In this document: one piece after another, positions 33,692-64,000 of the stretch
Layout: each line of letters begins with the position of its first letter
How positions within the stretch are numbered: the stretch's first letter is position 1
Source of the DNA: Clitopilus passeckerianus
Taxonomy: Eukaryota; Basidiomycota; Agaricomycetes; Agaricales; Entolomataceae
Direction of reading: 5' to 3'
DNA: 64,000 nucleotides
NCBI GenBank assembly: GCA_944990035.1
Contig: CALYLX010000144.1
Span: forward strand, 512,971 to 576,970
Program-made: the position numbers and the translations under genes
The notes under the pieces: generated by a model
Database searches by the model: none
Seen by the model: only the letters and a program-made list of their open reading frames with translations
Told to the model about the DNA's origin: nothing

Positions 33692-34574
33692 CTACTTTGG
33701 CTTTGCACTCTCTCGTTTACTACCGCTCCCGCCGCTACCTCCAGTCGTCCCGTTCTCCTGACTAGCGCTCGACGACATGTTGGAGGCGTCGACGAGCTCG
33801 GGGAAGATCTTATCAATAAACATATCAATCTCCGCCTTCGACAACTCTTCCTTCGTAGCGGAGGATCCTGCCTTCGACGCTCGTTGCTTGAAGCCCGAAA
33901 CGTGTCCTTGAAGTGAAATGACCTTGAAGGTTGTTGGTTTTCCAATTTTGTCCATCCACTCGTCCTTAAATTCGTTCTTCTCCACGAGTAGGCGTAGAGC
34001 CGGTCTGATCCACTCTTTGACGAGGTAGTCTTGAGCCAGAGCGAGGCGACTGATCCCGTTCAGTGGCAAATCTTCAAGCGCCTTGATAGCAAGTTGTCGA
34101 ACCTTTCCGAACTCCCAAGTTGTCGCCAGTTTAAGGACCGCAATCCATTGTGGAGGGGTGAGTTTTTCGTCCTCGAAATGCCTACACCTAAGGTTAAAAC
34201 ACAGGACAATAAAGCTGAATTCAGAGTTGACAAACCTCGGATAAAGAACTCGAAGGAATTGGCGGAAATCTTGGACGTCTATATCTGGAAGACGGTGAAG
34301 GGATTCTCCTTAGTGACGTGGTTGGCGGAGCTTGTGGCCACGGGGCTACCGGGGAGCCCAAACATATCTCTGAACTTTGTCGAACCCTCCTCAAAATGGT
34401 GCCGAGGCAGCCTGAAGATCACATTTCCGACCTGTAGGATAGCGGAGTTTAGTGCCGCTAGCGAATGGGCGTGAACAGCTCGTTGACCTACCAGGAAGTA
34501 AACATCTTCAAAAAGAAGAATTCGTCCTTTTTGCAGGCCGACAGGTCTTCAGAAAAATTCGTGTTGTTGGACAT
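33692..34574 (-). CDS. BTB/POZ-domain protein B (frame break in exon 1)
   Basis: The start is MSNNTNFSEDLSACKKDEFF at 34574. By comparison with BTB protein C, exon 1 should continue FFEDVYFLV, but the A-run 34510-34514 (T-run in the coding sense) appears one base short, so the frame slips to LKMFTSW and a stop. One more T restores it. Later exons give VIFRLPRHHFEEGSTKFRDM, PDIDVQDFRQFLRVLYPR, WIAVLKLATTWEFGKVRQ and AIKALEDL, ending GSKRESAKPK at 33692. The C-terminal region shared with protein C includes VISLQGHVSG and IDKIFPELV. It is clearly a paralogue of C. The break is probably a sequencing error. Confidence 0.78.
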
Positions 34575-35019: not shown

Positions 35020-35805
35020 CTAGTACCTGTACGATACAATGCCATTCCCGGTAGACGAGTTTCGTGTTGTAAACCCCAACGCAGCCCACGGCGCGGCCAT
35101 CTGCGGATGATGCATAACATACTGGTGAACGCGTTCCTGGGATTCTTCGTGGAGCCACTCAGGTGCATAATAATCCTGGAATGGTCTTCGTGCTAAACGA
35201 TGAAGTGTAAGGTGGAGGAATTCAGCAATATCTATCTCATCAACATGTATTTTCGCCCGGTACCAAGATCTCAAGTCGTTCTTGTGATCTACCCAGCCTC
35301 GCAGCTTGAGCAGCAGCAGGATCACCTGGGGCATAACGGGAAGATCAACATTGTTTGGTAGCCGTACGATGAATTCTTCTGGAAGCAATGGGATACTGAG
35401 AAACCCGGGTTGCAGGATATCCACCTTGCAGGCACGGTATCGGTTCGGTAAGGGTGGCCATTGGAACGTGTACCAAAGGACATTCCAACCCGCACCTGGC
35501 GTCACCGAGGGAACAAGGAAGAAGTTCTGATCAAAAGTAGTGAGGAGGTGCTTGACTTGTTCTGCGCCATACGAGGGATCCATGATTGCTACATCAACAT
35601 CCTTCGAGGAGTAGGTGTAAGTATCATGCATTCAAGTTGATTGTAAAAGGCGTACGTTGGGTTGGCGATTCCGCATGCCCCAGACATACCATGCAACACT
35701 CCCGAATAAGCAGGCCTTAATCTCGGAATGGCTGAGAATACTGATAGTGTGGCTTGCCACATAGCGAACCTCAGCGAGGGTGACACCGTGGCGATTCAGC
35801 ATCAT
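35020..35805 (-). CDS. Nucleotidyltransferase-fold protein 1
   Basis: Two exons. Exon 1 starts MMLNRHGVTLAEVRYVASH at 35805 and carries KACLFGSVAWYVWGMRNRQP. After an intron, exon 2 starts DVDVAIMDPSYGAEQ and continues FFLVPSVTPGAGWNVLW, KVDILQPG, LLLLKLRGWVDH and PEWLHEESQERV, ending GIVSYRY. The LFGS helix-turn motif followed by DVDV matches the core of nucleotidyltransferase-fold proteins (hG[GS] and the metal-binding D-x-D). This subfamily is common in mushrooms and has no known substrate. It is paralogous to the gene at 39776-40506, where the second motif reads DVDLVV. Confidence 0.72.
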
Positions 35806-36511: not shown

Positions 36512-37408
36512 CTACTTTGTCTTTGAATCAGGTCGCTTGGTGGCGTTACCATTATTGCTCGTAGCCCCATTCTCCTGAGAGCCCTTTTGAGCTGGGACCG
36601 CGGCCTCGACCAGCTCTGGGAACACCTTGTCGATGAAAGCGTCGATCTCGGCGATGGAGATGTCGTCTTTCTGGGTGGCTCCGACCTTGGGACCTCGTGG
36701 GTGCTTGTAACCAGCTACATGGCCCTGCAGCGATATGACCTTATGAGTTGTTGGCGTGCCGATTTTGTCCATCCACTCCGCTTTGAATTCTTGTTTCTCC
36801 GCGATGACACGTAAAGCAGGCCGCATCCATTCTTTGATATGGTAGTCCTGGGCGAGGGAAAGGCGGGCGATGGGGCCGATAGTCATGTCTTGAAGAGCCT
36901 TGATGGCGAGCTCCTTGACTTTGGCAAAGCCCCAGGTAGTGGAGAGTTTGAGAACTGCGATCCACTGCTGGCCGTTCAGTTTCTCAGCCTCAAAGTGTCT
37001 AGAGTGGAGACAAGATGTGAGTGGAAGTCAATGGCTGAGTAGTGCGCTGGAAGGCTCGCCTCGGATAGAGAACACGTAGGAACTGTCGGAACTCATCGAG
37101 ATCGATACCGGGAAGTCGGTGCATAGGATTTTCTTTGGCGATATTGTCGGTCGGATTGGACACCCTTGGGCTACCGGGTAAGCAGAACATATCCCTAAAG
37201 CGCTCAGAGCCTTCTTCAAAGTGGTGGCGCGGAAGACGAAACACAGTATCGGCAACCTAACATTCGTGGATGAGTTGGCACTGCCTAGGGAGAGGCTTCA
37301 ATCTGAAGGCAAACTTACGACGAAGTAGACATCCTCGAAGAAGAAGAATTCATCCTTCTTGCATAGTCCAAATTCACCTCCTCTTGGTAGTGTCATTCCG
37401 GTGGCCAT
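36512..37408 (-). CDS. BTB/POZ-domain protein C
   Basis: Three exons. Exon 1 starts MATGMTLPRGGEFGLCKKDE at 37408 and continues FFFFEDVYFV. Exon 2 has VADTVFRLPRHHFEEGSERF and GIDLDEFRQFLRVLYPR. Exon 3 has WIAVLKLSTTWGFAKVKEL and IARLSLAQDYHIKEWMRPAL, ending ATKRPDSKTK at 36512. It is closest to BTB protein B, sharing the exon pattern, the CKKDEFFFF start and the C-terminal VISLQGHV and IDKVFPELV segments. Intact copy, useful as the reference for the break in B. Likely an adaptor in protein-protein interaction, by family only. Confidence 0.82.
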
Positions 37409-39775: not shown

Positions 39776-40506
39776 TCAGTAGGAGTCAGAATCGAAGTCC
39801 TCAGCATCTATATCGGATACATCGAACCCTAGTTCAGCCCATTTCCCGGCAGAGTCAGGAATCGTATCGATAAACCTCTCGATTCGTTCCATACTCTCGT
39901 CAACAAACCACTCGGGTAGGTTCTGATCACTTAAATGCGCATCATAGTGGTGTATAGCCAAGTCCAACATCTCATCCAGGTCCGCCTCATCCACCCAGGT
40001 CTTCTCTTGCATCCTACGCCGATGATCGTCCATGTGGTCTGTCCAGCCTCTTAGCTTCAGTAAGAGGAGAGTAATCAGGGGCACGACAGGAAGGTCTTCA
40101 TTGCCCTCGATGCGAACAAGTTCTTCAGGCCACAGATAAGGGATGCTGAGAAGGCCGGGCACGAGGATGTCGACTTTACAGGTCCAATCATCCTCTGCGT
40201 GCCGGAACCAAAGAACGCGGTAGTCAGCGTTAGGGTTTCTCGAGGGAACAAGGTAGAATTCAGAGCTTGAGGACACAAGGAGTTCCTTGATTGATTCTGG
40301 TTCCCATTCCTCGTCCATCACAACGAGGTCGACATCCTAGAAACACGTTCACTCAATCTGCTGACGCCGAGTAGAAGGAACCTTACATTTGGTTCCCGAC
40401 GCTGCATCCCATACACGCTGCATGCAGCACTGCCAAATAGGCATACATCCAGGCCGTTCGCTTCCAGAATCTCAATCGCCACCCTCGCTGCTTCAAGGAC
40501 ACTCAT
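39776..40506 (-). CDS. Nucleotidyltransferase-fold protein 2
   Basis: Two exons. Exon 1 starts MSVLEAARVAIEILEANGLD and carries CLFGSAACSVYGMQRREPN; exon 2 begins DVDLVVMDEEWEPESIKELL, continues EFYLVPSRNPNADYRVLWF, CKVDILVPG, LLLLKLRGWTDHMDDHRRRM and PEWFVDESMERIERF, and ends DAEDFDSDSY. LFGSAAC plus DVDLV are the nucleotidyltransferase-fold signatures. The exon boundary is at the same place as in the copy at 35020-35805, showing common origin. The true start could lie slightly upstream, as some family members have a longer N-terminus. Substrate unknown. Confidence 0.75.
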
Positions 40507-40829
40507 ACCGGTCGAGGCGGAGGAGACGTGGTGATAGAAGTCAACAATGGTAACCCGTTGGGCGCCTACTGAACATCAGGATTGTGGCGCTGGCGCGCTC
40601 AGGCTTCTGAGCCACAGATTCTAGTAGATGATCTATCTATGGAGTCCATCTGTTGTCAATGAGTTACAAGGCATCGAGAGTCTTTGGACCCACTGCCGTC
40701 GAAATCAACTTGGATGACCAATAGAAATGGAACCGCGAGTAGCGAGGGTTTGGCGAAGAACGTTAATATTTGATAACTATTAGAATTACAAACATGGTGT
40801 CGATTAAGTGAAATTCAGTCCAGGCCGTG
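40507..40829. other. Spacer upstream of nucleotidyltransferase-like gene 2
   Basis: No gene seen. Confidence 0.35.
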
Positions 40830-40860
40830 CTCATGCCGACTTGTTCTGCTCGAGGAATCC
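40830..40860 (-). pseudogene. Remnant of a glutathione S-transferase 3' end
   Basis: On the minus strand this stretch resembles the last codons of the intact GST at 44697-45576 (ending FLQQNKTA), with stop codon TGA in the same place and about 27 of 30 bases identical. Weaker similarity continues about 20 bases downstream of the stop. The rest of the gene is gone. It suggests a second GST once lay beside the UstYa-like gene. Confidence 0.5.
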
Positions 40861-40914: not shown

Positions 40915-42000
40915 CTAATAGATAACAGCAGGTGGAGGTAGGTCATCTTCAACATAGGTTTTGATGTCAATGTATTTGTCGATATGCCTCTCGCCTGCCC
41001 AAGCTCGAACCTTCTCAAAATTCTTACACATATGGGGGTACTCGAGGCGAGGTCTAACCACGAGGTCCTTAGGGTCCCATTGCCAGAAAACAATAGATGG
41101 GTCTGAGTGGCACCTAACGCAACAAAATAAACGATGAATATTTGATATAGGGATGGGACGGGAGGAAGGAAGGCGCTCACATTACGTATTGCCTAATGGA
41201 ATCGATACAATGGGAGATGTGCTCGGGGGCAAACTCCTCTTCGGGGTCATCGAGGAGTTGGTCGTAACGATCTCGACGGAGAGCTTGCCTGACTTTATTC
41301 TGGAAGGTCTATCAATATCTCATCCGGTGGACAGTTGGTACACTAGCTTACCACGCAGTGAAGTTGATGGAATACGTCGAGTTGAGCGATGTAGTACCCA
41401 GGGAACTCCTTGATTGGCCATGTTCTGTTAGGCAAGAGAGCAGCTTCACTTCTGGGAATCTTCATCATCGTAACTAGGTCGAGGTTTTTGCTATAAAGAG
41501 GAGTAAAACGAGCTGAGTACATAAACTCACGATTGTACAAGTCCTGCCACGCTTGATCAGACTCGTCAGAGTATTCTTGGTATATTGTCTTCTTGTAAAA
41601 TCCGTCGTCAAAAACTTTGATTTGGTCCTCCAGAATCTCGTTTGCCGGAGCTATAAAGGTACTTAATCAATAATTGGAAGAATTGGCGAAGGATTGTCCT
41701 ACAATAAAGTTGGAGCCGTGTGCTACTCCCAGTGGCTCGGCAAGTCGCAACTAGTTGGTCGTAGGCAGAACTTGAGCTCCGGAAAGCCAGAAGAAGTAAG
41801 ATGAGCCCAATCGCCTGCACGGCGATAATAGCAAGAAAGATAATATCTTTCTTGATGCCGAAGTGTCTTTTCTTGAGTGAATGAGTCTCGTAGCCGTTGA
41901 AGCCATGTTGTTCGCAATGGCATTCTCTGTGAGGCTCTCCAGTAGGTGACTCGAGGTCAACAGCCATCAGAGGCAGATATCCTTCAGACTTGTCGCTCAT
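40915..42000 (-). CDS. UstYa-like (DUF3328) oxidase 1
   Basis: Membrane-anchored oxidase of the family that modifies fungal ribosomal peptides (ustiloxin, asperipin, phomopsin type). The start is MSDKSEGYLPLMAVDLE at 42000. An N-terminal cytosolic tail of about 50 residues precedes a membrane segment (DIIFLAIIAVQAIGLILLL). Later exons give PANEILEDQIKVFDDGFYKK, AWQDLYN, IPRSEAALLPNRTWP, then the family signatures DVFHQLHCV and HISHCIDSIRQYVM, CHSDPSIVFWQWDP and RPRLEYPHMCKNFEKVRAW, ending PPPAVIY. Both HxxHC and HCxD elements are intact. One point is unclear: after DLYN a 40-nt GT-AG stretch can be read either as 13 extra codons or as an intron; the intron reading would need one more A in the following A-run. 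Its start faces the repeat-peptide gene at 43153. Confidence 0.88.
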
Positions 42001-43152
42001 AGTCGTGGGGCGAGACAAAGACCGCAAAGTGTGGTGAACAATCCCTATTACAAGGAGGGTTCGTTGTGAGCAAGACGTCGGAGTCATCAAGCCAGTGGCG
42101 ATTCGGATCATCCTAGTTCGGCTGTTCTTCAACGACAGCGAAAATTGTACATGGACCAGATGCGAAGAGAAGACGTAGCATTCAAACCTTCCCCAATCTG
42201 AGGGAAACATGATGGAAAGGAGGCTACGTAAACTAACGATGATCTGAAGGGACTGGGACCAGGAAAGGAAAGGGTATTTGATCCGGCACCCAACAAGTTG
42301 GACCGGCGTTTGTCTTCTCCGACGCGCCTCACCATGACCACCTCCTTCAACTGACTCGAGTTTGAGAGATCAAAAGTGCCCTAATGTGCGCGAACTATTG
42401 TAGCAGGGATCTTGATTTTGCCTGAACTCTCACTAAAACCTCTAGTACGATTTCTGGGGCAAAAACGCTGTGCATAATCACGCATGGAACGCCAGCAACG
42501 ATGCTTATTCTACATGAACACCAGCATACTCGCTAAAGCTGATTACATGGGTACTAGGTCAAACGAAGTGTAGTGGTGGCGGCGGCTTATTGAGAAAGAT
42601 GCACAAGGCGCTCCCGCTAGTCTCTTAAAATATCTCAGCTATTTCCGAAGAACTGAAACGTCGCACCTTGGACAGCAGGATTGGATTTCTGATGTCTCAA
42701 TCTTCGGATAGGTTTTCCAGGTTTCCTTCTGCGCAGGGAGCTATACGTATGGCTGGATTGAACATATCTGCCTCCGGATCATCCATGGTCAAGCACAGGT
42801 GGTAAGAATCGAATGTCTGAGTTGTGCTTTCCTTCCGCTAGGTATGCCGAGAATGACTCCCATTAATTTCGAGTCGGAGGGCTCCACATCAGGCGATTCT
42901 ACTGTTTCTATTCGGCCTGGAGCGCACGCCGCTGTACTACTGACAAACGGAATGGTAGTCTTGCAAATCCTCTGAACCGACCACGTGCGAAGTGGTCCGA
43001 GGCCATTGCGATTGTAGATGAGCTAGCAAGTCCTAACTTGACTTACAAAGTCCCCGGACCAGTATAAATACAGGTGCCAGTTTTCTACAGACGACACCGC
43101 AGTAAAGTGGTATTTCGAGAACAAGCCTCTCTCTCATCAGAACCCTACGACA
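42001..43152. other. Divergent intergenic region between UstYa 1 and the repeat-peptide gene
   Basis: About 1.15 kb without a supported gene, separating the two divergent start codons. It presumably carries the promoters of both the oxidase and its probable precursor, which would allow joint regulation. Confidence 0.5.
43063..43070 (+). promoter_or_regulatory. TATA box of the repeat-peptide precursor gene
   Basis: TATAAATA lies 83 bases before the ATG at 43153, a strong core-promoter match expected of a highly expressed small secreted-protein gene. Confidence 0.65.
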
Positions 43153-44000
43153 ATGAAATTCTCCATCGCTCTTATTCAACTCGCCCTTGTTGCCTTCGGT
43201 GCCCAAGCAGCGCCGGTCGACGCGGGGACCTTTGGTACTGGTTAGTCTTCGTTCATTACGGCAGGTGTCAGTTATTGACACGCAGTTCACTGTCTAGAAC
43301 GTCGTGGGAGGCTGCCAGCGCCGATTCAGATGCCACTTTCCATCGTTCATCCAACGGCGGATGGTACTACGGCAAGCGCGATGAGGCTGCCGTTGCCGAC
43401 TCTGATGCTACCTTCCATCGCTCCTCCAACGGCGGATGGTACTATGGCAAGCGTGAGGAGGCTACCGGCGCTGACTCCGATGCTACTTTCCATCGCTCGT
43501 CTAATGGTGGATGGTACTACGGTAAACGTGATGAGGCTGCCGTTGCCGACTCGGACGCTACTTTCCATCGCTCTTCTAATGGCGGGTGGTACTATGGCAA
43601 GCGTGGCGAAGCTGCCGTTGCCGACTCAGACGCCACCTTCCATCGCTCCTCTAACGGTGGATGGTATTACGGCAAGCGCGACGAGGCTGCTGTTGCCGAC
43701 TCCGATGCTACTTTCCATCGTTCATCCAACGGTGGATGGTACTATGGCAAACGTGAGGAGGCTACCAGCGCCGACTCCGATGCTACTTTCCACCGGTCGT
43801 CTAACGGTGGATGGTACTACGGCAAGCGTGATGAGACTGCTGTTGCCGACTCTGACGCCACCTTCCATCGCTCCTCCAATGGCGGGTGGTACTACGGCAA
43901 ACGTGAGGAGGCTGCTACTGCCGACTCTGATGCCACTTTCCATCGCTCCTCTAATGGCGGATGGTACTACGGCAAGCGTGAGGAGGCTTCCAACGCCTAA
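43153..44000 (+). CDS. Secreted Kex2-processed repeat precursor with nine identical core peptides (candidate RiPP precursor)
   Basis: The start MKFSIALIQLALVAFGAQA is a signal peptide; APVDAGTFGT follows, then an intron (about 43230-43299). The second exon is nine 25-residue units, each containing the invariant core DSDATFHRSSNGGWYYGKR, then EEASNA and a stop. Spacers vary: DEAAVA, EEATGA, GEAAVA, EEATSA, DETAVA, EEAATA. Each KR is a Kex2 site, so cleavage would release up to nine near-identical peptides ending WYYG. The reading frame from exon 1 into the first unit works only if one base is missing at 43306-43308; the restored join reads RREEAASA, matching the other units. The neighbouring UstYa-like gene makes a cyclised, dikaritin-like product likely. 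An unmodified secreted signal or antimicrobial peptide is the alternative. Confidence 0.85.
43305..43979 (+). repeat. Nine tandem 75-bp coding repeats
   Basis: Nine direct repeats of 75 bases in frame. The 19-residue core is identical in all nine, while many third codon positions differ between units. This pattern shows selection on the peptide rather than recent duplication alone. Confidence 0.95.
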
Positions 44001-44696
44001 GACAACGTGTTCTTTTCCCCGCCTGATACATACATGCATAGGCTTCCCGGAATGATCAGAGCCATTCTTCTGTTAGCTATTTGTCCTTCCCCATTCAACC
44101 TTACCGAACTAAATTCCCTTTCCGTTTCGGATTTCTTTCTTTTCTTTACGCCGTTTACGAGCCTGCTTGATCGATTGTTGTACTACTATTCAAACGAATA
44201 CATTGACGAATACTGTTTTCCATCTATCAACCTGCGTGACATGAGGCTCTTGGAGTGGATTACCTCACGGTGAAGTAAACAAGAGATAGATTTAATTAAC
44301 TGGATTCAGTCCTTCAACAGTTTCCGGACGACTGCGCTGCCCCTCGCGCCTGTTCAACAGCACTGTTACTCGGCGACATGCCTGCGAGGTCCTCACACAA
44401 CACATTTTCAAGTCTACATTTTGGAACAGTCTATCTCCTGCGTGGACCTTGCTTCGCCTTAGTAGGAAAGAGCGGAGGAGAAATGGATGGTGGGGACAGC
44501 CGGGAAGGTGTAGAAACGACGACGAACTTGAAGAACCGTTTATTTGCCTCGAGTGCTTTGACGATTAGATCTTTGATGTCCCCAACGGTTGACCATGATC
44601 GGAGGAAAAAGTAAACAAACTGTCGTGTTTCAAAAGTTATAAATACAAGCATGTTCAGAACTGTCGATATAACGAAATTTCAGCCATGCCTATTAC
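44001..44696. other. Convergent 3' flanks of the precursor and GST genes
   Basis: No gene supported. Open frames in this stretch are short and without motifs. Confidence 0.4.
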
Positions 44697-45576
44697 TCAT
44701 GCCGTCTTGTTCTGCTGGAGGAAGCTGGCAATACACTCTTCAGTCCTGGGCCTCACGATATCCTGAACGGGAGGTTTGAGTAAGGACATTAATCAAAGAA
44801 TATCAGCGCGGCGGTACTAACATCTTTCCAGGTCTTCTTGACACTCTCACGAGAGGTAACGTCGTCGAAGTACTTGCGGTAACGAGCAAACTTAGGATCG
44901 GTCTCAATCGTCTTGAGAGTCTCCAACGAGGCGGGGATAAACTTCCCGAGGACCTCAAGGCCGAGTTTGAGGCGAAGCAAGAACGGTGCAGCCGCGATGT
45001 CAGCCAAAGTGAACTGCTTTCCGATGGCGTATCCTTCAGCCGGGAGGAGAGCTTGAATTTTTTCCACGCCAGTCAGAACGCCGTCGAGATTCTGCTTAAG
45101 GAGAGCGCCAATATAGGCAGGGACGAGGACATCGGATACCTGCGACACGAAGAAGCGAGCCTCGGCGCGTTCTATAGGATCGGTGGGGAGAAGAGCGCCA
45201 TTTGACAAGTCGTTGACAAGGTCGACGACGACGAGGGATTCAGCTATTTTCTTGGTGTCGGGAGACGGGTCGGCGGGATCAGCTTGGGGACCGATCGCGA
45301 TTGCTGGTACCTGTATGGCAAGTTGACATTAGTGTTCGGTCACGCAAGACCTTTGCGGGGGTACCTTGCTAGCCGGGTTGACCTTAGGGGCATACCACTC
45401 TGGTTTGTTTTGGAGGTCAATCTCGTAGCGAGTGAATTCGAGACCAGTCTCTGCGAGAGCAATTTCGGCCTGATTTCGACGTTATTCAAGCACGGTGCCG
45501 GACAAAGTGTCTTAGAACGTACCCTATGAGCGAAGGGGCATCCAATGTTGGTGTAGAGGGTGAGTTGCTGGACCAT
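44697..45576 (-). CDS. Glutathione S-transferase (omega-like, thioredoxin-fold CPFA motif)
   Basis: Cytosolic enzyme conjugating or reducing with glutathione. Exon 1 starts MVQQLTLYTNIGCPFAHRV at 45576; the CPFA cysteine is the omega-class nucleophile. The next exon gives AEIALAETGLEFTRYEIDLQ and KPEWYAPKVNPASK, then VPAIAIGP and ESLVVVDLVNDL (glutathione-binding region). The helical C-terminal domain includes ARFFVSQVSDVLVPAYIGAL and KQFTLADIAAAPFLLRLKLG. The last exon ends ECIASFLQQNKTA at 44697. Intact, about 245 residues. It is next to the repeat-peptide gene; whether it belongs to that pathway or is general detoxification is unknown, but a GST relic also lies beside the UstYa gene. Confidence 0.88.
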
Positions 45577-60909: not shown

Positions 60910-61776
60910 CTAGGCGATTATCTCCTTCTTCACCATGGACCGTATGCAACGCGGCCGCCGACTGGGACCGTCATCACCGCGTGTTGACGGGAATGAAAGC
61001 AGCATCGCCGTGTTGCTCTACGAGGAATCACCTGAGTGACTTGTTCCAAGGGTTTCGGGGACACTTACCACTTCGCGAGGACCATAAGTCGTACACCTAC
61101 GGGGATGAAAGCGGCATCGCCAGTATTGCTCTATTGAAATCAGAGTCGCTAAGAGACCTAGTGCTTTGAATTTTCAGCTTGTAACTTACGACTTCACGGG
61201 GACCATAAGTTGTCTTGCCAGCACGGGAATAAATGCGGCGTCGCCAGTATTGCTCTGATGGAAACCAGAGTCTCTGAGCAGCCTAGTTCGTGAAGCTTCC
61301 AAATGGGCACTTACGACTTCACGAGGACCATAGGTTGTACGCCCACCGACTGGGATGAATGCAGCATCGCCAGTATTGCTCTATGTTAAACCATGATAAT
61401 GAGCGTAAATTTCTTATAAGGTTATAATGGTCACGGACAACTTCACGAGGACCATATGTGGTCCGACCACCGACGGGAATAAACGCGGCATCGCCAACAT
61501 TACTCTGAAGACCACTCCCTGTGAGCATCCCGTTTCGAAGAATTTCCCGAGGACCACTTACAACTTCGCGGGGACCATAGGTCGTCCGGCCACCCACAGG
61601 GACAAATGCTACATCGCCGACGTTGGTCACCTCACGAGCGTCCTACAGATCGGAAACGTCAGCATCTGGCCCCACAAGAGCAATGGCAAAAGGCTGACAT
61701 TCAATGCAGTCGGGGCCGCAGTGACGGTATAGAGAAAGAGAGTCACAAGCGAGGTAAGGATGGCTGCAGTCTTCAT
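60910..61776 (-). CDS. Secreted repeat precursor 2, one repeat per exon (candidate RiPP precursor)
   Basis: Exon 1 (61699-61776) encodes the signal peptide MKTAAILTSLVTLFLYTVTA and APTALN. Exon 2 (61562-61642) encodes DAREVTNVGDVAFVPVGG and RTTYGPREV. Exons 3 and 4 (61439-61504; 61315-61380) each encode exactly one 22-residue unit starting SNVGDAAFIP or SNTGDAAFIP and ending TTYGPREV, all phase 0. Three further exon-like units (61190-61254; 61069-61130; up to 61017) are 1 or 4 bases short or degenerate, so the frame as given would fail in the fifth unit; the stop at 60910 is tentative. Every unit begins after R-E-V, which suggests cleavage at a single Arg rather than KR. The next UstYa-like gene lies about 2 kb away. 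Confidence 0.75.
61069..61642 (-). repeat. Tandem exon-intron repeats of precursor 2
   Basis: Five clearly homologous exons (81, 66, 66, 65 and 62 nt), each flanked by its own GT-AG intron of about 58-60 nt; a sixth degenerate copy follows to about 60930. The introns are less alike than the exons. Confidence 0.85.
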
Positions 61777-63718: not shown

Positions 63719-64000
63719 CTAGTATATGATAGGCGGGACTGGGAGGTCATCCTCCACGTATTCCGTCGCATTGATATAATGGTCGATATAGCGCTGCTGT
63801 GACCATTCGCGAATCTGGTCGAAGTTCTTGCACATGTGTGGATAATCGAGACGTGGTCCAACCCTCCGGATTCATCACTCCATTGCCAAGGGACGACAGC
63901 AGTATCGGCATGGCACCTATCAGCAAAATTATGAGGCTATACAGGTCAAATATGAGAAGGTCTTACATCACGTATTGGCGAATGACCAACCCTAAATCAC
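63719..64000 (-). CDS. UstYa-like (DUF3328) oxidase 2, C-terminal part, cut by window edge
   Basis: The gene enters from the right edge. Visible exons read VIRQYVM, then after an intron CHADTAVVPWQW, and finally GPRLDYPHMCKNFDQIREWS and the tail ending PVPPIIY at 63719. This matches the last third of UstYa-like oxidase 1 (CHSDPSIVFWQW, RPRLEYPHMCKNF, PPPAVIY). Between WQW and GPRLDYPHM the frame slips at the C-run 63862-63864 (G-run in the coding sense); one more base repairs it. The two HxxHC-type metal-site elements lie outside the window. Its nearest characterised-looking partner is repeat precursor 2. Confidence 0.8.

Follow-up and report, generated by a model that had tools for sequence, protein, structure and literature searches.

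A recurring UstYa oxidase and repeat precursor cassette in Clitopilus passeckerianus, a candidate source of dikaritin-like peptides

Relation to described systems

The closest described systems are the ascomycete dikaritins (ustiloxin, phomopsin, asperipin-2a and victorin), which combine a Kex2-processed repeat protein (KEP) as the precursor with a DUF3328 (UstYa) oxidase; the oxidase with a double HxxHC motif is described as the class-defining dikaritin enzyme (PMC12048977). DUF3328/UstYa enzymes are reported to act as dicopper oxidases and to join side chains, for example through the Tyr-O to Phe ether of asperipin-2a (PMC12186524). Here we describe a locus of similar composition in the basidiomycete Clitopilus passeckerianus. 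It lies in a stretch of 64,000 nucleotides (the window; contig CALYLX010000144.1, positions 512,971 to 576,970), which is the end of contig C141 in an assembly of 64.8 Mb and 160 contigs. A UstYa gene and a precursor gene with Kex2-type repeats diverge from one promoter region, and the pair recurs in the genome as a co-duplicated cassette, in keeping with the probable peptide product proposed in a first-pass annotation of this DNA. We place at about 0.7 the probability that the locus is one copy of a co-duplicating precursor and oxidase cassette for a secreted, Kex2-released and oxidatively modified peptide, a dikaritin-like ribosomally synthesized and post-translationally modified peptide (RiPP).

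The kind of locus is already known from genome mining. In the survey of Umemura (2020; PMC7329392), DUF3328 genes accompany 1758 of 7878 KEPs overall, 103 of 1680 in Basidiomycota and 17 of 76 pheromone-like basidiomycete KEPs. Type S-5 (Sistotremastrum) is a multi-copy family with DUF3328 in 8 of 12 cases, and type P-3 (Fonsecaea, Cladophialophora, Galerina, Psilocybe and Coprinellus) has Trp together with Pro and DUF3328 in 4 of 7 (PMC7329392). The present locus resembles these basidiomycete KEPs in its signal peptide, its Kex2-separated repeats and the DUF3328 gene, which among the surveyed KEPs mostly occupies the next position. It differs in the co-duplication with core replacement, described here for one genome; the core, like the species itself, may be among those of the survey. 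The first-pass annotation called the locus a probable new basidiomycete RiPP locus. The selected, RiPP-like cassette stands, but its newness as a kind was overstated, given the 103 basidiomycete cases already counted. New here are the co-duplication of the cassette with replacement of the core and the codon-level evidence for selection on the peptide. Pleurotus ostreatus is reported to have 16 UstYa genes, of which 6 are expressed during development (PMC8893723). No characterised peptide product of a basidiomycete UstYa was found in a literature search, which did not reach most subscription journals.

The window locus would have a single DUF3328 gene, as does the asperipin-2a cluster (PMC7329392). 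A double-HxxHC enzyme beside a KEP precursor, the part of the dikaritin definition that can be read from sequence, is present here. The locus differs from the dikaritins in that Trp, not Tyr, is constant across four cassettes and that the spacers are acidic/Ala and STE13-like. Dikaritin cores are also shorter than the cores here, which have perhaps 11 to 18 residues. Unlike the cycloamanide/MSDIN and borosin RiPPs, the precursor has KR repeats and a signal-like leader, with neither the short precursor of a cytosolic oligopeptidase nor a fused N-methyltransferase.

The cassette family, its cores and their selection

Four loci in the genome have in common a UstYa gene, the promoter, a conserved leader, a phase-1 intron, an ERRGEA junction and a KREEAxKAD-like spacer. 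These are the window locus, the 90k cassette (contigs C93:87-90k and C142:88-91k), the 96k cassette (C93:94-97k and C142:94-97k) and a cassette at C74:295-298k. Their cores are unrelated to one another: TFHRSSNGGWYYG at the window locus, IVFLPQSV/IGGWAPG in the 90k cassette, FLYNWGA with variants in the 96k cassette (three units only, mutually dissimilar) and GFRLGSPAGWSIGPP in the C74 cassette, whose first unit is FFDFDPVDGWDFLPS. The intergenic region is homologous at both ends across the cassette loci. In a quick tree without bootstrap of 56 rows (the 21 modelled UstYa copies of the genome and 35 of 40 database matches), the seven cassette copies group in a single clade (SH-aLRT 97), itself nested within a clade of all 21 (SH-aLRT 94). 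The common leader, intron and spacer, the homologous promoter ends and the single UstYa clade show co-duplication of the whole cassette, in which UstYa, promoter and precursor were copied together and the cores replaced. A single adjacency would be much weaker evidence for a functional link than this recurrence is.

When the genome was searched with three repeat units, all 19 matches at E ≤ 10 fell at UstYa loci. The codon pattern for KR-(D/E)-E-A occurred at 115 genome sites, compared with 39 for the reversed control. Among the 100 of these sites that were listed, 40 fall in UstYa-linked arrays; loci with at least three evenly spaced sites number three after haplotypes are collapsed (window, C93:87k/C142:88k and C74), all UstYa-linked. 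The nine genome places that match the leader (Table 1) reduce to five loci when haplotypes and a twice-assembled contig are collapsed, and a UstYa gene stands head to head with the leader at eight of the nine. The possibility that relatives of the precursor occur without UstYa, raised in the first-pass annotation as a ground for refutation, was thus mostly not borne out within this genome, the ninth place being an apparently decayed copy.

The 17-residue block DATFHRSSNGGWYYGKR shows no amino acid change over the nine units of the window array, with synonymous variation at 15 of its 17 codons. The proportions of synonymous (pS) and nonsynonymous (pN) differences are 0.616 and 0.000 in this block and 0.448 and 0.113 in the spacer, where four positions differ in amino acids. 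The chance of all 15 variable core sites being synonymous is about 1.7e-10 if the sites are taken as independent. In the corresponding array on C142, taken as the other haplotype, the units are rearranged with respect to the window, and all 15 variable core sites are synonymous in eight of the nine units; the ninth, left out of this count, has replacements. The 90k cassette on C142 has five units with seven variable core sites, all synonymous. On C93 the same array has eight units and five variable core sites, one codon of which has a V/I replacement, indicating that the constraint on the core is less strict there. The conserved entity in the array is the peptide, not the DNA. For the UstYa gene, the seven cassette copies gave dN/dS values of 0.059 to 0.238 in their 21 pairwise comparisons, and the two alleles of the window locus gave 0.155. 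Both the core and the enzyme are under purifying selection.

The first-pass annotation had pointed to the adjacent Tyr residues and the Trp of the core as suitable for ether or aryl cross-links; in ustiloxin, phomopsin and asperipin-2a the residue used for the cross-link is Tyr. The window core has both Tyr-Tyr and Trp, and every unit of the array carries Tyr. The 90k and C74 cassettes lack Tyr, and the 96k cassette has it in some units only. Tyr cross-linking is therefore unlikely as the shared chemistry of the cassettes; Trp, which is present in all units of all four, could be the common target. Trp is also found in the repeated units of two other precursor types (C93:176k/C142:188k and C26/C123), except in the last C142:188k unit; on both haplotypes, the C93:176k/C142:188k precursor has in addition a non-repeated KR-bounded segment without Trp. 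The constancy of Trp is only suggestive, since KEPs without DUF3328 often have Trp as well (24.5% of repeats, compared with 20.5% with DUF3328; PMC7329392) and linear peptides that end in Trp have been found (PMC9769878). We tentatively consider, as a possibility below even odds, a basidiomycete dikaritin branch in which the cassette duplicates and swaps cores around an invariant Trp, and in which UstYa is a promiscuous, copper-dependent enzyme that oxidises or cross-links Trp. From one enzyme chassis, one genome would then produce a set of distinct peptides with modified or bridged Trp.

The strongest alternative, which we regard as unlikely, is that the precursors give linear signalling or defence peptides of the alpha-pheromone type, and that the adjoining UstYa makes no cross-link and acts elsewhere or adds a small oxidation. 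The spacers, of the KR-E-E-A-x-K-A-D type, resemble those of STE13-type precursors, and basidiomycete repeat proteins with an STE13-type signature and a C-terminal Trp have been described (PMC9769878, PMC6339444). The likeness extends to the linear Agaricomycete KEP peptides of Vogt et al. (2022; PMC9769878) and to ascomycete alpha-pheromone precursors, where KR is followed by acidic/Ala dipeptides and the core ends in Trp or has it close to its C-terminus. The repeat-protein peptides detected in Coprinopsis cinerea, Lentinula edodes and Pleurotus were linear and minimally modified (PMC9769878), and a spacer signature of the alpha-pheromone type is reportedly absent from the precursors of ascomycete toxic cyclic peptides (PMC6339444). 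The main text of Vogt et al., however, does not contain 'DUF3328' or 'UstYa', whereas here every cassette precursor is linked to a UstYa gene, with the exception of one decayed leader copy. The co-duplication of UstYa, promoter and precursor and the purifying selection on the enzyme argue against linear products, as does the retention of both HxxHC motifs in 20 of the 21 modelled UstYa copies (two of the 20 models contain a stop). In the window units, moreover, the phase of the STE13 pattern is imperfect: the spacer reads KR-(D/E/G)E-A(A/T)-(V/G/S/T)A-DS-DA, with X-Ala in phase in only part of the dipeptides. Under the preferred reading of an oxidatively modified product, the cassette family suggests a diversifying set of modified peptides. 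It also offers a natural experiment in one genome, with conserved leaders, spacers, promoters and enzymes but different cores, which makes the substrate tolerance of the DUF3328 oxidase and its choice of Tyr or Trp directly testable.

Structure of the window locus and its reading frame

The features of the locus are listed in Table 1. The divergent, start-to-start arrangement of the two genes was confirmed.

Table 1. Features of the UstYa and precursor locus in the window
Feature	Position	Strand	Details
UstYa/DUF3328 oxidase gene, coding sequence with stop	42000..40915	minus	five exons, 285 amino acids
UstYa exons	42000-41703, 41650-41531, 41473-41352, 41299-41181, 41113-40918; stop 40917-40915	minus	splice model
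Divergent promoter region common to UstYa and precursor	42001..43152	.	1152 bp between start codons; both ends kept in sister cassettes
TATAAATACAG inside the divergent promoter region	43063-43073	.	window letters
Precursor exon 1, signal-peptide-like leader MKFSIALIQLALVAFGAQA / APVDAGTFGT	43153..43240	plus	leader matched in 9 genome places, E ≤ 4.6e-4
Precursor intron, 57 nt	43241..43297	plus	same position and phase in seven spliced precursors (one of 55 nt)
Precursor exon 2, array and stop	43298..44000	plus	frame disrupted at start in window copy; intact in C93 and C142
Nine 75-nt units: variable acidic/Ala spacer, invariant ADSDATFHRSSNGGWYYG, Kex2-type KR	43308..43982	plus	inside the tandem array 43303-43988

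The UstYa identity of the gene at 40915 is supported by a Pfam PF11807 match and by both HxxHC motifs (HQLHC at residue 175 and HISHC at 207). The match was obtained with two earlier splice models, of 288 (E 7.8e-41) and 304 (E 3.8e-40) amino acids, from which the final model differs in intron 2 only; both were dropped, and an intron 2 of 57 nt fits the paralogues. The protein has one strongly hydrophobic segment, starting at about residue 53. Its top named relative in a protein database search is from Gymnopilus dilepis (44% identity); the best named relatives belong to Gymnopilus, Flagelloscypha, Mycena, Schizophyllum and Coprinopsis, all Agaricales, ascomycetes rank lower, and the six top scorers are metagenome proteins. 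Two matches to an unrelated protein, at E 0.68 and 0.85, were all that a search by sequence for a solved structure gave, and neither is significant. Among 30 window open reading frames scanned with Pfam, no tyrosinase or methyltransferase domain was found.

The precursor is of the Kex2-type repeat kind. The tandem array spans 43303-43988 and encloses the nine units, each of which carries KR, and the core DATFHRSSNGGWYYG is identical in all nine. A strict KR-repeat scan found no match in the window beyond 43000-44100 and none in 20 3-mer-shuffled windows. The leader, MKFSIALIQLALVAFGAQA followed by AP, has a hydrophobic core and is signal-peptide-like. Pfam matches of six families on the precursor (LINC-PINT at E 6.1e-10, 40.1 bits with a cut-off of 27) were read as repeat artefacts because no family has a stretch that passes alone. 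No relative of the precursor was found at E ≤ 0.001 among 146 candidates with the 263-amino-acid query, nor at E ≤ 10 among the best 8000 candidates with a five-row family profile, in a search of 5.8 billion proteins from which short intron-bearing genes are easily absent.

The first-pass annotation described a signal peptide followed by nine identical cores; the cores and their KR sites are as described, but in the window letters the signal-peptide exon is out of frame with the array once the 57-nt intron is removed. If exon 1 is joined directly to exon 2 and read in the frame of the window letters, no array results. Alternative splice sites, judged by eye, were dismissed because the sister precursors keep the same intron unbroken. 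Taken at face value, the frame break could make the window copy a genuine null allele and the locus dead on one haplotype. This is very improbable. The region on C93 (L028) is 99.86% identical to the window over 9903 aligned positions, with no mismatch and 11 gaps, each a change in the length of a short base run or simple repeat. The C142 copy (L029) is 89.6% identical. In both, the leader is in frame with the array, giving precursors of 263 amino acids each, so the break most probably reflects a run-length error in the assembly of C141. Core constraint, moreover, is not relaxed in the window array or in the eight C142 units without replacements. The end of C141 and C93 seem to be one sequence assembled twice, and run-length errors may affect further gene models of the assembly.

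An intact precursor of the cassette would be processed as follows. The leader would carry it into the secretory pathway, where a membrane-anchored UstYa with both HxxHC motifs would oxidise or cross-link an aromatic residue in each core. Kex2 would cleave after KR and Kex1 would remove KR, as the motif and the protease-domain genes of the genome suggest; Kex2-type P_proprotein domains occur at two places on C125. The acidic/Ala spacer may be trimmed by an aminopeptidase, STE13-like or other (DPPIV_N domains occur on C115, C114 and C8). The secreted product would then be copies of a peptide that ends in GGWYYG and is perhaps 11 to 18 residues long.

Other UstYa loci, decayed copies and minor features

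Outside the window 29 UstYa regions were listed, and the surroundings of 20 were examined. A repeat precursor was present at 11 of the 20, or at 6 of 10 loci when haplotypes were collapsed by place, core and tree. The fifth pair is also divergent and has another precursor type (C93:174-176k/C142:187-188k, core IFFYNWGEE); the sixth, on C26/C123 (core QRGIYWP, again another precursor type), has both genes on the same strand. No repeat precursor was found at the remaining four (59/67k, 188/201k, 147/761k and 75/816k; eight regions examined). At C93:97852-97941 (L031 6853-6942, minus strand), a solo leader with a single Trp-containing core VFVYLPHGWANP has no UstYa gene of its own and lies about 1.1 kb from a convergent UstYa; it is apparently a decayed cassette. 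The C74 UstYa has no ATG where the others start, and its spliced models have a stop or lost residues; this copy looks decayed. The precursor-less loci, the solo leader and the C74 copy weigh against the cassette reading, together with the STE13-like spacers and their linear counterparts, the frame break in the window and the V/I replacement.

The four precursor-less loci show that UstYa can occur without a precursor, and they would also fit a reading in which two unrelated genes are neighbours by chance or through hitch-hiking. We consider this extremely improbable in view of head-to-head pairing in four co-duplicated cassettes, the fifth divergent pair and the sixth same-strand pair; neither the GST gene at 44.7-45.6 kb nor the left-hand gene, the other two neighbours that were tested, was found at sister loci within 10 kb, and the GST gene was for that reason rejected as a cluster member.

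The other UstYa group is represented by eight short loci (L001-L008) of about 3.3 kb apiece, and no repeat precursor was found in any of them. L046 begins inside a UstYa gene at a contig end and belongs to the window locus, its precursor side being off the contig. Signs of decay were seen in precursor-less UstYa copies at C142:201k (L038) and C94:75k (L042), with an HxxHC Cys replaced on one haplotype and an internal stop in another model. A second UstYa gene of the window (63722-64000, minus strand; C93:59k and C142:67k) is truncated by the window end, and no repeat precursor was found around it on either haplotype. A KREEA-type scrap with Trp is present at C93:99.6k. Groups resembling KR-E-E-A without a nearby UstYa match occur at C83:268068-268138 (2 sites) and C94:131405-139483 (8 sites, unevenly spaced), and may be other repeat precursors or chance.

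Elsewhere in the window, a minisatellite at 61058-61508 has a period of about 124-125 nt and is not a Kex2 repeat gene, because the period is not a multiple of three. Left of the cassette there are diverged duplicate pairs, 33785-34410 with 36602-37235 and 35059-35601 with 39779-40336 (65% identity in DNA and 43% in protein); four open reading frames scanned within these stretches matched no Pfam family. The short stretch 40798-40857, after the UstYa 3' end, is 79% like 44662-44723, which lies past the 3' end of the GST gene.

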